A DNA stretch of 64,000 nt from Actinomycetes bacterium (lineage in GTDB: Bacteria; Actinomycetota; Acidimicrobiia; Acidimicrobiales; Acidimicrobiaceae), in contig JAJZFV010000015.1 of NCBI GenBank assembly GCA_021805205.1, positions 1 to 64,000 on the forward strand. Direction: 5' to 3'. Positions 22,605 through 29,639 of the stretch are shown here, one piece after another. How positions within the stretch are numbered: position 1 is the first letter of the stretch; every line of letters begins with the position of its first letter. The translations under genes were made by a program, and so were the position numbers. The notes under the pieces are model-generated. The model saw nothing but the letters and a program-made list of their open reading frames with translations. It was not told where the DNA came from and ran no database searches.

Positions 22605-24731
22605 TTATGCGAAATAGGGGACTAAGAGACATCTACACCCAATATGGGCAGGTGGGGCCGGGTTTCCGGTTGGGAAGTTGCTCCCTACATCAATAATGCC
22701 TTCTAACTCATTATCTTCACAATCCGCGCATCCGCCTTCGCCACTACGCACCCAAGTCACCTTGGCAACGTCGGTACAAGTAATCAGCCAAGTTGATACG
22801 AGGATCGAGATCATATCCGATACAAGCGTCTCGACGAATTCGGTTTTTAGTTCCCTAAAAGTGGCACCGAGACGCGTCGATAGCGCAGCCAAATCATCAC
22901 CCATTCCAGTCCCGATAACACTTTGCACCCTTGAAGCAACCTCTTCGGCTAGTTCAAGTGCAAGCTCATCGACGGCTGCCCTCATCTCAACGCTCGGCTT
23001 TACCGAGACATTCCACTTTCCATCGCCAGCACCTTGAATGAGCTGAATCTGAGAGAAGTATCTCGAGGATTGTTCCACGATTGGTTGAACGAAAGAGGCC
23101 ATTACATCTGAGTACGCTCGAGCAATCTCTTGAGTTTCAGAGACGATACGCCTAGCTTCATCGGCGCCACCGATCCTCAAACCTTCGAGTAAAGCGTTTT
23201 GGTCATCTTGAACCACGCGCTTTATGCGCCTTGTTGCTTGGCTTCTTAGCGAAGAGAAGGCGTCCCCGTACATTGCAGAGATCGCCTCTTGCAAACTCTC
23301 TGGCCTTTGAGTTGACGATCCATCGAAGTCCGAGGCAACGACATCATCCGAAGCTTCGACCTCTTCTTTTATTTGAGAATAAGTTTGATCAGCTACATCG
23401 ATGACATCAACTTCAACGACCTTCACATTTCTGGGTGTTTCCAACTCGTTCTCTGAACGCTCCAAAAGCCGACTAAAAATATCCTCAACCACAAAGTGGT
23501 CACCGTGACGCTTATCGTTTGCGCTATCAGAGTTGGAGCTCGTTATTGAGGGTTCACTTTGTTCCAAAGCATCGGTATCGAAGAAATCGGCACCTAGGTC
23601 GGTGAAATCGCCATCACCTGCGATATCGTCGGCCCTAATTTCCGCTTCCTCCACTGGATCAGATCTATCTGGTTCGGCGCGCAAAGAGGGCCAACGACCT
23701 AGCCCACCCCTTCCAGCGCTAACTTCTTTCTCGACCACTTCATCTCTAGGGGTCTCACGGCTAACTTGCTCTTCAATAGAAGTTTCATGAAGACCGTCTG
23801 TATCATCAAAATAGAGAACCTTAGCAGAAGACTTACTGGCTAAATCTTCGCCAGGCGGTTGATCAATTGAGTTCGAATCCTCTTCTGCAAATGCCTCCGA
23901 TACCACGATTTGACCATCCTTGGAATCTTCATCAGGGATCTCGTCAACTACTGAGACGGATTCGTCGAGTTGAGATTCCTCCATCCGTATAGAAGAGGGT
24001 GTGTCTTCAAAAGTTGGATCCACCTGACCAAGGAGCGCATCGAGAGCAAGTTTTACCCCTCGAAGTTCCCCTGTAAGTTGCTCTTTTTGCGCCTCGATGA
24101 GTTGGAGAACTTCACGAGCTTCATTAGTTCTGCGGTCTATTTCGGCGTATACCTCTGCTCTTACCTCCTTGGCCTTTCGAACAATAGAGTCAGCATCATA
24201 TCGGGCCTCCTGAACCAGAGTTCTTGCAAGCTCTTCGGCCCTTTGAACCTCGCTGGTGATCTTAGTGTTGGCCTCTTGGGTTATTCGATCAATCTCTTCC
24301 CTATGGATCCTCAGCTCCTCAGACATCTCGAGACGATGGGCTGCCTCTTTCTCAGCGACCGCGATATCAGCTGCCTCGCGAACTGAACGCGAATACTCGT
24401 TAGCCTTCGCACGAATCGAGTCGCTCGCAGCCGTAGCACTCTTTAGAATCTCTGCCGCCTCTTCACCTAAGGCCGATGTAATCGAAGCTAGATCAAGCTT
24501 TGGCGTGGGCGCGATTTCTGTCGGAGGCGGCGTACTAATATGACTCTTCATCTTCGCCGCTAGAAGGTCATATAAGCGATGCTGCTCAGCGACGTAGGTT
24601 CCAATGAGCGCAAGGTAACGATTGACTTCTTCTGGCTTGAAGCCTCGCCTCGTAACCGTAAAAGTTTTAGATGCGATCTCATTGGGAGAGAGTCGCTCGC
24701 TTGACTGCGGTATCAGGGGGTTATCACTCAT
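22605..24731 (-). CDS. DivIVA-domain coiled-coil protein with phage-MuF-like Cys C-terminus
   Basis: This is a 708-residue protein. Residues of about 12-60 are a DivIVA-type domain (FTVTRRGFKPEEVNRYLALIG), which binds curved membrane at poles or septa. Residues of about 95-235 are a long Ala/Glu/Arg coiled coil. Residues 240-470 are acidic and probably disordered. Residues 480-665 are helical again. The last 43 residues hold CADC, then PPAHIGCRC, the pattern seen at the end of phage MuF/SPP1-gp7-type head proteins. The combination suggests a polar scaffold with a small metal-binding or transferase-like end domain. That second role is inference. Confidence 0.75.
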   Translation of the reverse strand: MSDNPLIPQSSERLSPNEIASKTFTVTRRGFKPEEVNRYLALIGTYVAEQHRLYDLLAAKMKSHISTPPPTEIAPTPKLDLASITSALGEEAAEILKSATAASDSIRAKANEYSRSVREAADIAVAEKEAAHRLEMSEELRIHREEIDRITQEANTKITSEVQRAEELARTLVQEARYDADSIVRKAKEVRAEVYAEIDRRTNEAREVLQLIEAQKEQLTGELRGVKLALDALLGQVDPTFEDTPSSIRMEESQLDESVSVVDEIPDEDSKDGQIVVSEAFAEEDSNSIDQPPGEDLASKSSAKVLYFDDTDGLHETSIEEQVSRETPRDEVVEKEVSAGRGGLGRWPSLRAEPDRSDPVEEAEIRADDIAGDGDFTDLGADFFDTDALEQSEPSITSSNSDSANDKRHGDHFVVEDIFSRLLERSENELETPRNVKVVEVDVIDVADQTYSQIKEEVEASDDVVASDFDGSSTQRPESLQEAISAMYGDAFSSLRSQATRRIKRVVQDDQNALLEGLRIGGADEARRIVSETQEIARAYSDVMASFVQPIVEQSSRYFSQIQLIQGAGDGKWNVSVKPSVEMRAAVDELALELAEEVASRVQSVIGTGMGDDLAALSTRLGATFRELKTEFVETLVSDMISILVSTWLITCTDVAKVTWVRSGEGGCADCEDNELEGIIDVGSNFPTGNPAPPAHIGCRCLLVPYFA

Positions 24732-25784: not shown

Positions 25785-25962
25785 TACTGAACCTCACAAG
25801 AGAGCTGCCGATCGCGGGGTGCCGAAGTTGCACCGACAACTACGATTTAAAACTAGGGCCAAAAGCCTCGCTAGTAACGCGCATCCACGTAGATCAAGGT
25901 GAAAGTTCCCGTGGAACTCTGTATACGCCTGGATGCAGCGAAAATTTCTCGGGGAGAGCCAA

Positions 25963-26610
25963 TTGTCGTCAGGTAAGGAATCGTTTCGATTCAACATCAG
26001 TCCTTTAGACCAGGATGAACTAAGTGCAGCTGCCGAATGCGTAGAAGCTTTTCATACCGGCGACGTCGAAATGGCTAGAAAGCACATCAAACACAACAAC
26101 CCTAGAGTTAGGGCCTTCGCTATCGAAGCGCTCTCAAAATATAACGAAATTACCGTCGACGACATCAAACGAGAGATTGATTCAGGTGAAGTAGAGAGCT
26201 CGATAGCCGTGGTACGAGCCGGCAAGAATCTTGGATACACCTTCGATGAATTCATCTCCAGAAAAGACCTTCACCCCCTAGTTCGAGAATCGATCATCTT
26301 TGAAGTGGGTGAAGCCAAAGCGATCTCTCATCTGCCCGTATTGAATGAGTTGGCATCGAAAGATGATGATCCGATGATAAGAGAGGCTGCCGTAGTAGCA
26401 ATAGGCAACATAGGCGACCCATCTTCTCTACCCGTGATCCTCGCTGCGACAAGAGATAAGACGAACATCAGAAGAAGGGCCGCCGTTGCACTCTCTCAGT
26501 ACGAAGAAGAGGAGTCGCTCGAAAGGCTACGCAAATTAGCGGTGGAGGATAGAGACTGGCAGACCAGGCAAATTGCACAGGCAATTATCGAAATTGAAGA
26601 GGGCGACTAA
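25963..26610 (+). CDS. HEAT-repeat protein
   Basis: This protein of about 215 residues is built from helical repeats of the HEAT/PBS-lyase type: NPRVRAFAIEALSKY, DPMIREAAVVAIGNIGDPS, KTNIRRRAAVALSQYEEEES and DWQTRQIAQAIIEIE. Such proteins are binding scaffolds, and the partner cannot be told. TTG 25963 is preferred as start because GGGGAG lies six bases ahead; an ATG ten codons upstream (25933) has no such site. It is convergent with the MreB-like gene, with only four bases between the two stops. Confidence 0.85.
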   Translation: MSSGKESFRFNISPLDQDELSAAAECVEAFHTGDVEMARKHIKHNNPRVRAFAIEALSKYNEITVDDIKREIDSGEVESSIAVVRAGKNLGYTFDEFISRKDLHPLVRESIIFEVGEAKAISHLPVLNELASKDDDPMIREAAVVAIGNIGDPSSLPVILAATRDKTNIRRRAAVALSQYEEEESLERLRKLAVEDRDWQTRQIAQAIIEIEEGD

Positions 26611-26614
26611 CCTT

Positions 26615-27607
26615 CTAATTTCTAACCTGACCAAGTATTTTGGCTGCTCCTAAAACCACCGCACGTTCAACCACGGGAGGATGATGAGCCGGAATTCGAA
26701 CCAACGACTCAATCAGTTCATCGAAGCCCCGCAAAAGACTAGCCCTACCAACAAGGTGAATACCCTGCTTCGATAAGTCGTTCGAGATCTCAGCCGGTGC
26801 TTGTTTCAATGTATTCAAGACTACGTCACATATTGATCCGACGGCGCTTCGCACCGCACTCGTAAGCTCTGATGACTCCACTTCGACTGTGTGATCGGCG
26901 CCAGTATCGACGTGTCGCCCCTTCAACGTTGCAACTACCGATGTAGCACCATCGGTTAGATCTACTAGAGCAACTTTGAGCTCCTCTATATCCGAGTCAA
27001 ACATAATCAATTGATAGACGTCACGAAGATACCGGCTTATTGCTTCGTTAAGACTTTCACCACCTACGAAACCATTTTGCGTCTCGATTGAGTCACCGAG
27101 TGCAAGAATCCCGGCGAATGTAGTTTGAGCCCCAATCGATGCAACCATTACACCATCGGGGCCTTGAATATCGGCTCCAGCCCCGACCGCCGCTGCTACC
27201 GTTGAGTCAACGAAGATTACACTCGCAGCTCCGGCTTTCGAGAGGGCTGACGCCATCACGCGCTTTTCAGCCGTAGTCAAGAACGAGGGGGTGGCCAACG
27301 CAATATGGGGCTTTCCTCTCCGAGAGGACGAAATACGTTTGATAACCGCACGAAAGTAGCGCTCAGCCAGTCGAACGTCATCAAGTCTTCCACCGCGGAT
27401 TGGCCTTAGTACTATTAGATTTCCCTCGGCACGACCCTCCATGCTCGCTGCCGACAGACCGACGTCCATCACTTTCCATCGTTTTTGATCTACGACAATT
27501 AGGTTTGGCTCCGACACGACCTCTTCTGTAGATAGATCACACCACGAGATTGAAGAGCTTCCTAAATCCAACGAGACATACCTAGACAGCCTGCTTCCTT
27601 TCATCAT
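26615..27607 (-). CDS. Divergent MreB/actin-like protein
   Basis: This protein of about 330 residues has the MreB family layout: a phosphate-1-like start (SLDLGSSSI), RPIRGGRLDDVRLAERYFRAVIK, PSFLTTAEKRVMASALSKAGA and FVDSTVAAAVGAGADI. The second phosphate loop, normally DIGGGTT, reads SIGAQTT, and the connecting motif is weak, so ATP handling may be altered. The C-terminal adenosine motif region GIHLVGRASLLRGFDELI is degenerate too. It overlaps the small membrane protein gene upstream, which suggests translational coupling. It is probably a cytoskeletal or scaffold protein; a pseudo-actin role is possible. Confidence 0.75.
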   Translation of the reverse strand: MMKGSRLSRYVSLDLGSSSISWCDLSTEEVVSEPNLIVVDQKRWKVMDVGLSAASMEGRAEGNLIVLRPIRGGRLDDVRLAERYFRAVIKRISSSRRGKPHIALATPSFLTTAEKRVMASALSKAGAASVIFVDSTVAAAVGAGADIQGPDGVMVASIGAQTTFAGILALGDSIETQNGFVGGESLNEAISRYLRDVYQLIMFDSDIEELKVALVDLTDGATSVVATLKGRHVDTGADHTVEVESSELTSAVRSAVGSICDVVLNTLKQAPAEISNDLSKQGIHLVGRASLLRGFDELIESLVRIPAHHPPVVERAVVLGAAKILGQVRN

Positions 27608-27770
27608 CAAAGGAAGCTGAACGGTTCAAACTAGATATTGCAGTCATGCGAGCACTGAAAGATTCAATGCTGGAGTGGTTGCGGCGAGGAATTTTTTCTA
27701 CGAGCGTGATGAGAAGCCCGAGGACAAAAACCCCTCCAAGGGGTATACCGACATATAAAAGATTCGACAT
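27582..27770 (-). CDS. Small single-pass membrane protein upstream of the MreB-like gene
   Basis: This 62-residue protein starts at ATG 27770 after a strong GGAG at ideal distance. Residues 3-24 (LLYVGIPLGGVFVLGLLI) are a membrane helix, followed by a basic cytoplasmic tail (KIPRRNHSS). Its end overlaps the MreB-like start by 26 bases in another frame, so the two are likely translated together. It may anchor the actin-like protein to the membrane. I know of no named family. Confidence 0.7.
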   Translation of the reverse strand: MSNLLYVGIPLGGVFVLGLLITLVEKIPRRNHSSIESFSARMTAISSLNRSASFDDERKQAV

Positions 27771-27802
27771 CCCAGCTCCTTTCAAATTAGGAATAAAAAC
27801 TT

Positions 27803-28279
27803 TTACAACTGCTCTATAACAGAAGAATTTTTTGACCAGTCGCTACCTTCGCTCCAAGTCTCTTTTTTCCAAATTGGAACTGAGCGCTTGAGGGTATCTA
27901 TGGCAAACTTTCCGGCTAGGAAAGCTGCCTCACGATGCTCGGAGGAAACCGCAATTACCACAGTTGACTCTCCGACCTCGCAGGGTCCGAGACGATGGCC
28001 AATTGCGACTTTAACTATCCCGTCAAAGTCGAACGAAGTTGAAAAGGCGACTTTACTTAGTTCATTAATGATGACTTCTTCGTACGTTTCGTAAGAGAGT
28101 GAGGTAACTCCGTCGCGACCATCCGAATGATTGCGGACGTTGCCACTGAAAAAGACGACTGCACCGGCTCGCGGATCTTCAACGAACCTTACGGCAGCGT
28201 TGAAATCGAGTTGGTCTCTAGTGACGTAGACCCAGTGACGACCGTCTTTAAAATCACGTACGCCCGAATTTTCCGACAT
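27803..28279 (-). CDS. moaE: Molybdopterin synthase catalytic subunit MoaE
   Basis: This protein of about 158 residues inserts the dithiolene sulfurs into precursor Z together with MoaD. Family blocks are clear: AGAVVFFSGNVRNHSDG, ISYETYEE-like LSYETYEE, IGHRLGPCEVGESTVVIAVSS, HREAAFLAGKFAIDTLKRSVPIWKKE. ATG 28279 is chosen over a TTG at 28297. MoaD and other molybdenum-cofactor genes are not adjacent. It lies 32 bases upstream of the small membrane protein gene on the same strand. Confidence 0.94.
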   Translation of the reverse strand: MSENSGVRDFKDGRHWVYVTRDQLDFNAAVRFVEDPRAGAVVFFSGNVRNHSDGRDGVTSLSYETYEEVIINELSKVAFSTSFDFDGIVKVAIGHRLGPCEVGESTVVIAVSSEHREAAFLAGKFAIDTLKRSVPIWKKETWSEGSDWSKNSSVIEQL

Positions 28280-28451
28280 TTTTAGACGACACCTCAACGA
28301 CTATTGGTTCCTAGTCTACTACGAACCTTGAATATTGCCTGAAGGTTGCAGTCAAGGTTATATAAAAGGAAAAGTGCCCATCTTTTTGGTAATACATGTG
28401 ATGGGTGCTTTGAAGTCAGACCTCCACTCAGGTACCCTTTATTAGGAACTT

Positions 28452-29639
28452 ATGAGCGATTACTCCGACTGGAACAGCGAAGACGACGATGAAAATTCAG
28501 CCGGTTATATTCCGCCTGACGATCGTATCTGGCTTCACCCAAGCGAAAGTGGGCGCATCGCATCGGGTCAAACCTACCAACGGAAAAACAACTGGCAAAG
28601 ACTCTGGGCAACTTTTCTAAAACGTCCAATTACGATGGCGGCATTGTTTCTAATGATTGGCCTCGGAATCGGAGGAGCTTCCACTTCGATATCTTCAAAT
28701 CCAAAGACCGTTCCTGCGACATCGAGCGCAACAGCAATTGAGCTTCCGTCTGGATTGTCATCAAAGATCAACTCAATATCCCAAGCTGTGACAACGATGA
28801 AGACAACCAAGGGAGGAATGTGGGAGGCTGCAACCTACGTCGGCAGCTCAAATCTCTTAGTCACTACTGCGGAATATTTAAAGTTATACCAAGACGTATT
28901 GCTTCAAAACACCTCTAAAAAAGGTAAAAGTACCTGGATCACAGCCAACGTGACTGCCATCGATCCCTTGACAAATGCTGCAGTTCTCACCATTGGAAGT
29001 AGCTCACATGCGTTCGTTCCTACGTTCTCAACCGACACACCACCCACCGGTGCCTTGGAAGAGATCGTGACACCGAACTTAAGCGGTAGTAAAAAGCTCG
29101 TTTCGGCCGAGATAGTCTCACGTTCAACTGCAATTTCAGTTTCGAATCAGATCTACATTCCCAACGGGATCGCTCTTTCGATTGGGCGACAAACCGTCCC
29201 CTTGGGTTCTCTAGTCTTAGACCCCGAGGGTGATCCAGTCGGAATAGTAACCGACGTTCGGACCTCGTCTCAGGGCAATACCGCCTATGCGACTCCAATG
29301 CCCTCGCTTATAAACGTAGCCAACCTCGTAAATAGCCATCAAATTGTCGCACACGGCTACCTTGGCATCGTCGGCGTTGCCGATGTAACTGAACTCAAAG
29401 GATCAACGATCTTCGGTATCAAAGTTGAGTCCATCGACCAAAACTCACCTGCCGACAATGCCGCAATTGCAGTTGGAGCCTTCATCATCTCTGTCGATGG
29501 CATTAAAGTAACCTCCATGCAGCAACTACAGACGATCCTCCAATCAAAGACGCCAGGTACCACCGTTTACCTTGGTCTAATCCAGGGTGGCCAAGAGCGA
29601 GAGATGAAGGTAGTTCTTTCTGCGCATCCAAATAATTGA
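28452..29639 (+). CDS. HtrA-like membrane protein lacking the catalytic triad, with PDZ domain
   Basis: This is a 395-residue protein. An acidic cytoplasmic N-terminus with DDRIWLHPSE, as in actinobacterial HtrA/PepD proteins, precedes one membrane helix (residues of about 58-78). A trypsin-like domain follows. Where active HtrA has a His (TNNHVV) this has LLVTTAEYL. The Asp region DPLTNAAVLTI is kept. The GNSGGP nucleophile loop reads LGSLVLDPEGDPVGIV. A C-terminal PDZ domain (HGYLGIVG, SPADNAAIAVGAFIISVDG) is intact. It is probably a binding or sensing pseudoprotease on the outer face of the membrane. Confidence 0.8.
   Translation: MSDYSDWNSEDDDENSAGYIPPDDRIWLHPSESGRIASGQTYQRKNNWQRLWATFLKRPITMAALFLMIGLGIGGASTSISSNPKTVPATSSATAIELPSGLSSKINSISQAVTTMKTTKGGMWEAATYVGSSNLLVTTAEYLKLYQDVLLQNTSKKGKSTWITANVTAIDPLTNAAVLTIGSSSHAFVPTFSTDTPPTGALEEIVTPNLSGSKKLVSAEIVSRSTAISVSNQIYIPNGIALSIGRQTVPLGSLVLDPEGDPVGIVTDVRTSSQGNTAYATPMPSLINVANLVNSHQIVAHGYLGIVGVADVTELKGSTIFGIKVESIDQNSPADNAAIAVGAFIISVDGIKVTSMQQLQTILQSKTPGTTVYLGLIQGGQEREMKVVLSAHPNN

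Follow-up and report, generated by a model that had tools for sequence, protein, structure and literature searches.

The window, a 64,000-nucleotide stretch of an Acidimicrobiaceae genome (class Acidimicrobiia, phylum Actinomycetota), contains a minus-strand locus in which the gene of a membrane microprotein, smTM, lies directly upstream of, and overlaps, the gene of an MreB-fold protein, here called MreB2 (Table 1). The smTM frame opens with ATG 27770, closes with the stop TAG at 27584-27582 and encodes 62 amino acids. The gene order around MreB2 is zincin, PDZ membrane protein, moaE, smTM, MreB2, HEAT, LonC/PDZ and DivIVA-like, and parts of it recur across the order. An earlier note on this DNA had described an actin-like gene with an altered loop, overlapping the frame of a 62-residue membrane protein with a ribosome site; both frames are present as described, and the loop SIGAQTT corresponds to residues 158-164 (27139-27119), where the canonical MreB of the same genome has DIGGGTT. 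In a promoter and terminator scan the number of sites was not above that in shuffled sequences. Concerning the neighbours, 22605-24731 (minus strand) encodes a 708-aa protein with a DivIVA domain at the N-terminus and a CxxC...PPAHxGCRC stretch at the C-terminus, which we take to resemble the zinc motif of phage minor head proteins, and 28452-29639 (plus strand) encodes a membrane protein with a C-terminal PDZ domain, whose protease part looks degenerate, with a partial match to the HtrA/DegP models far under the cut-offs.

Table 1. Features of the smTM-MreB2 locus, in window coordinates.
Feature	Positions	Strand	Remarks
MreB2, MreB-fold protein with degenerate ATP site	26615..27610	-	331 aa from TTG 27610; 324 aa from the probable start CTG 27589
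smTM, 62-aa single-pass membrane microprotein (stop codon included)	27582..27770	-	predicted cytoplasmic tail
smTM ribosome site GAAAGGAG	27776..27783	-	sequence reading
Probable CTG start codon of MreB2	27587..27589	-	comparison of start position across relatives
AAAGGA, possible MreB2 ribosome site, 6 nt before CTG	27596..27601	-	
MreB2 phosphate-1 loop, residues 15-23	27542..27568	-	DLGSSSISW instead of DLGTANTLV
MreB2 Ser136 at the catalytic Glu place	27203..27205	-	Caulobacter E140
MreB2 phosphate-2 loop, residues 158-165	27116..27139	-	SIGAQTTF instead of DIGGGTTE
MreB2 adenosine motif, residues 288-291	26738..26749	-	GRAS instead of GGGA
MoaE-family protein, upstream neighbour	27803..28297	-	Pfam 110 bits
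HEAT-repeat protein, convergent neighbour	25933..26610	+	

MreB2 is an MreB by fold, and not by catalytic motif or locus. It matches the Pfam MreB_Mbl profile (PF06723) with 217.7 bits against a cut-off of 27, over profile positions 3-322 of 327, and its AlphaFold model, obtained from 23 aligned sequences, has a mean pLDDT of 91.2, with MreB or Mbl entries making up all of the 25 best PDB matches (TM up to 0.93). The structure matches also include a PDB integrative model pairing an Mbl with YtxH, on which our literature search found no paper. The same genome encodes a canonical MreB (493 bits) on contig C5, where mreB is followed downstream by mreC, mreD and a PBP2-like gene (names read from translations), and to which MreB2 is 30% identical. 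The separation of the pair from mreCD proposed in the earlier note is therefore borne out, since mreC and mreD adjoin canonical mreB and not MreB2; moreover, neither was found beside smTM-linked MreB2, and no locus had both smTM and mreC, within the fetched flanks (only about 1.5 kb for search-derived loci). Whole-length fold and domain order are the same in the canonical protein encoded with mreCD, which has the catalytic Glu, the phosphate-2 Asp and the GGG adenosine motif, whereas the window MreB2 lacks all three and, unlike canonical MreB, lies apart from mreC and mreD and falls below the NCBIfam cut-offs for MreB models (207.1 of 293 and 170.6 of 365.75).

In Caulobacter MreB the attacking water is held by E140 and T167, according to the available part of PMC4051119, and these positions were transferred via the T. 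maritima alignment, both with an offset of nine. Residues were counted over 118 proteins, 139 having been collected and 21 short, identical or repeated rows dropped. The E140 position is Glu in 40/40 canonical MreBs and Gln in 44/44 class-type MreB2 proteins; other classes have Glu in nine and Gln in two rows (n = 11), and the window's family never has Glu (Ser 10, Ala 7, Thr 4, Pro 2; n = 23). Both the phosphate-2 Asp and the Thr at the T167 position are kept throughout the canonical (40/40), class-type (44/44) and other-class (11/11) rows, and in the family the Asp is kept in 1/23 and the Thr in 11/23, with the window retaining this second catalytic residue as T163. The hydrolysis motif E...T-X-[D/E], given in the available part of PMC9597168, is absent from the window protein, which reads S136...T163-T164-F165. 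As for the adenosine GGG, the first Gly is kept in all rows, and the second is Arg in 9/23 family rows including the window. The membrane-loop residue is hydrophobic in 16 of the 23 family rows (Phe 12, Leu 4) and is lost in the window trio, with Arg in 3/23.

Class-type MreB2 has intact phosphate loops despite the Gln at the catalytic place; the phosphate-1 Asp appears as a gap in the class and phylum rows of the count alignment from trimming, and other alignments show DLGTANT or LGTANT. Actin also has Gln at the place of the catalytic Glu, hence Gln in class-type MreB2 need not abolish hydrolysis. In other families the MreB2 proteins corresponding by synteny retain most of the ATP site. G016 looks intermediate. 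The site thus looks to have decayed in two steps, from Glu to Gln in the class and then by a wider loss in the family, an order that we only infer, since the tree does not place the family (see below). Because most of the ATP site is lost, the family MreB2 is, as judged from sequence and model, very probably a pseudo-ATPase.

The microprotein measures 53-85 aa in the aligned set and consists of one hydrophobic helix, followed by Arg/Lys and then by a tail with near-invariant Phe and Ala. Its model shows helices at 3-25 and 33-61, the second of low confidence (mean pLDDT of the whole 72), and by the positive-inside rule for membrane protein topology the tail should be cytoplasmic. The window smTM gave no match to any Pfam or NCBIfam family. 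As assigned by register pattern, its start codons are ATG in 19, GTG in 10, TTG in 3 and CTG in none of 33 sequences, with one out of register.

The MreB search gave a match in 40/41 genomes and two or more in 36/41. Within the window's family smTM stands beside MreB2 in all 24 loci read (23 genomes, G024 twice; of the 25 family genomes searched, G007 gave no match and G022 only a canonical copy), and in the other families of the order it is present in 15/17 MreB2 loci, missing in L052 and L055. A plain search finds smTM solely in the window's family, and reading the gap between moaE and MreB2 reveals it in other families; a profile of 18 smTM sequences then has matches in 75/247 class genomes and 33/296 phylum genomes. 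The class-type MreB2 set (n = 100) is made up of the class genomes with at least 436 bits among the matches listed, together with a partial gene in G235; family-type copies, with their lower scores, lie outside it, and a few diverged copies (e.g. G262) were possibly missed. Among the matches listed, 78 of these 100 genomes have smTM immediately upstream of MreB2, usually beside moaE: 68 show an smTM match 32-242 nt upstream on the same strand, and 10 of the remaining 32 gave one with all filters off. The earlier note had suggested searching for the pair in other genomes, its reading depending on the small frame being conserved; the pair recurs across the class, and the frame is kept both throughout the family loci and across the class. 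No smTM was found in 22 of the 100 class-type genomes among the matches listed (G059 lies outside the filters-off check, and G082 and G203 end near the gene), so that smTM is not an obligatory component in the class. Of these 22 genomes, apart from the three named, about ten have a MoaE-like frame that, as judged visually, extends to MreB2.

Seen from the side of the microprotein, smTM adjoins an MreB in 30/30 loci of the class search (best 30 of 75 matches), and at least 72 of the 75 class matches adjoin MreB2 (68 class-type and 4 family loci), the remaining three being G125, G078 and G059. Among the additions from the phylum search it adjoins an MreB in 17/23 loci; L143 has an MreB fragment only, and the matches in L132, L138, L139, L146 and L148, where no MreB is present, could be due to chance. 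In some further actinobacterial classes, too, a second MreB is preceded by smTM. In L128, L129, L133, L134, L136, L145 and L147 an smTM-like protein lies beside a second MreB with the Glu intact (Gln in L128), and no moaE was found near these pairs in the short flanks, which suggests that the pairing of smTM with MreB is older than the moaE linkage. Two assemblies carry two moaE-smTM-MreB2 loci each (L053 and L056 in G040; L071 and L072 in G024), possibly through duplication or mixed strains.

The N-terminus of class MreB2 reads x-A-R-D-L-A-I-D-L-G. In 105 unique contexts, drawn from 104 genomes, position x is occupied by CTG in 43, ATG in 37, GTG in 18, TTG in 6 and TTC in 1, that is, NTG in 104/105 loci, the sole TTC being that of L137 from another class; counted by genome, CTG occurs in 42/104. 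This set comprises 46 rows identified through their Gln in the catalytic position and 59, mostly short stretches, identified through the N-terminal motif, and omits seven rows fitting neither description (ATG 4, TTG 1, TTC 1, CTC 1, the TTC and CTC rows carrying the canonical motif). It should be noted that the rows are related and their counts are not independent events. CTC, CTT, CTA and TTA are found at x in 0/105, and inside these genes Leu is encoded by 963 CTC and 752 CTG codons. At 34 of the 43 CTG loci there is no in-frame ATG, GTG or TTG back to the previous stop, which in 14 of them is at most five codons away; in the other nine a standard start is present upstream. A ribosome-site word of at least 4 bases precedes 33/42 CTG and 29/43 ATG codons, in a slightly different set. 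As a control, the same column was read in 49 rows of the Glu type, which are mostly canonical and have longer N-termini; it holds 19 different codons, with NTG in 16/49.

Among 24 family loci, the start position is CTG in 15, ATG or GTG in six and neither in three (L071, L072 and L074). Just ahead of its CTG the window retains TTG and ATG codons, of which L005 (about 90% identical) has none as far back as the stop. Starts at 27610, 27607 or 27604 were considered and are less likely for the window itself, as those codons are not common to L005 and the CTG is. Comparison with L005, which shares the CTG and lacks any standard start back to the stop, thus makes CTG 27589, with AAAGGA six bases before it, the probable start of the window MreB2. 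The overlap of the two frames is then probably only 8 nt, the likely start being CTG 27589-27587 and not 27610. More generally, the recurrence of CTG points to natural CUG initiation as a possible explanation.

Regarding selection, the window smTM differs from that of the nearest relative, G001, by 27 synonymous and 5 nonsynonymous changes (94% identity, dN/dS 0.03). The two MreB2 genes show 204 synonymous and 39 nonsynonymous differences at 91% protein identity, with no dN/dS ratio given because dS is saturated. After smTM, MreB2 is the protein of the locus most conserved against G001, the others being 84% (MoaE), 75% (HEAT), 82% (LonC), 83% (PDZ) and 84% (zincin) identical. Against G002 it is 56% identical and canonical MreB 96%, and within the family its identity to the window falls to about 20%. 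By these sequence comparisons MreB2 evolves much faster than canonical MreB, yet under purifying selection. The dN/dS of smTM and its recurrence upstream of MreB2 across the class indicate that the pair is more than chance.

In the tree the family rows lie on one side of a branch with an SH-aLRT of 100, with very long branches. When the 12 most divergent rows were left out, constraining the family to group with class MreB2 yielded a likelihood 22.3 above that of the free search (p-AU 0.86), and the constraint to canonical MreB one 16.6 above (p-AU 0.77), both constrained placements being accepted; orthology of the family MreB2 is therefore argued from synteny. The earlier note had set its protein apart from normal MreB with working loops; as regards the loops, which are altered in the window, this stands, and as regards phylogeny the trees are compatible with either group.

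We read the locus as encoding a pseudo-actin that is anchored at the membrane and turns over ATP slowly or not at all, an evenly balanced proposal in which we infer the anchoring, the filaments and the function. MreB2 would be an old second MreB of deep-branching Actinomycetota, encoded apart from mreBCD and usually paired with a membrane microprotein. The class-wide replacement of the water-activating Glu by Gln, with the phosphate loops kept, would have slowed ATP turnover, and in the window's family most of the ATP site would then have been lost and the actin fold retained. With its membrane helix, basic stretch and conserved cytoplasmic helix, smTM most likely holds MreB2 at the membrane, and the frame overlap together with the weak CTG start may limit the amount of MreB2 in relation to smTM. 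Instead of a dynamic filament, the product would form a static scaffold at the membrane or modulate canonical MreB, and the DivIVA-domain and PDZ neighbours hint, as a guess, at growth or envelope work. A wider proposal is rather doubtful: an actin system outside the elongasome, widespread in Acidimicrobiia, would have lost the Glu class-wide and then, in one family, the greater part of the ATP site, would assemble free of nucleotide on a dedicated microprotein, and would have its dose set by a conserved CUG start overlapping the microprotein stop.

Bacterial MreB paralogues such as Mbl act jointly with MreB, and MreB2 could likewise be a subunit without catalytic activity, tuning the ordinary elongation machinery by co-assembling with canonical MreB, capping it or titrating it, with smTM only bringing MreB2 to the membrane. 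Such a role would suit the presence of a canonical MreB in the same genome and of multiple MreB matches in most genomes searched; it is nevertheless somewhat unlikely, given that MreB2 shares no locus with mreC or mreD within the fetched flanks and is so distant from its own canonical MreB. The lost ATP site would equally fit a protein that no longer polymerises and, bound to the membrane, acts as an adaptor or regulator with an actin fold, perhaps for the PDZ, Lon-like or DivIVA-domain neighbours; the PDZ membrane, Lon-C/PDZ, zincin and DivIVA-domain genes are partly kept across the order, but most of them also flank intact class-type MreB2, and we regard this role as improbable. Quite unlikely too is that smTM is an independent small membrane protein merely on the same transcript as moaE and MreB2: the class-type genomes with MreB2 and no detected smTM (22/100, among the matches listed) and moaE as the usual upstream neighbour speak for it, whereas outside the class smTM adjoins an MreB with no moaE found near (e.g. 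L128, L129, L133, L136, L145 and L147) and nearly all class smTM matches, 72/75, adjoin MreB2. Pseudogene decay of MreB2 into a functionless paralogue in the window's family, as the lost catalytic residues, very long branches and low family identities might suggest, is highly improbable and was rejected on the excess of synonymous differences to G001, the high conservation of MreB2 within the locus and the fact that, among the family matches listed, an internal stop occurs only in G021, where it is in fact the smTM stop, located immediately ahead of the MreB2 start.

The pseudo-actin reading can be set beside known systems. RodZ has a cytoplasmic helix-turn-helix domain, a membrane helix and an outer domain, an architecture absent from smTM with its 62 aa, two model helices and lack of a family match. 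Streptomyces has, besides Mbl, a further MreB-like protein, SCO6166. Streptomyces Mbl is itself an extra MreB homologue in Actinomycetota (available part of PMC4255298). RodZ, MreC and MreD are membrane proteins proposed to connect MreB with the wall machinery (available part of PMC3296230), from which smTM differs in its small size across the aligned set, single helix and short tail. In the available part of PMC9597168, Spiroplasma MreB3 is described as a natural MreB without E...T-X-[D/E] that releases Pi very slowly and still forms filaments; it binds nucleotide, its authors propose a stable membrane-anchoring role, and that part mentions no smTM-like partner. Compared by this description, MreB3 has lost the Thr too, whereas the window MreB2 keeps the Thr and has lost the phosphate-2 Asp; by analogy, and as far as that part of the source goes, MreB3 is the best working analogue of MreB2. 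Distinctive features are the partner microprotein of MreB2, in no Pfam or NCBIfam family, and the recurrent CTG start; among the matches listed in the open-licence literature, no paper on the MreB2-smTM locus or its CTG start was found.

As comparative evidence for natural CUG initiation in bacteria the recurrent CTG is strong, and it suggests that start predictions for the MreB2 gene are often wrong. The microprotein points to an MreB-linked membrane microprotein family absent from Pfam and NCBIfam. Since a single locus offers a natural series, from Glu to Gln and then to little ATP site, it would allow the role of ATP turnover in a bacterial actin to be tested. The gene pair is old and widespread in one bacterial class, where it may provide a membrane-tethered actin-like scaffold.
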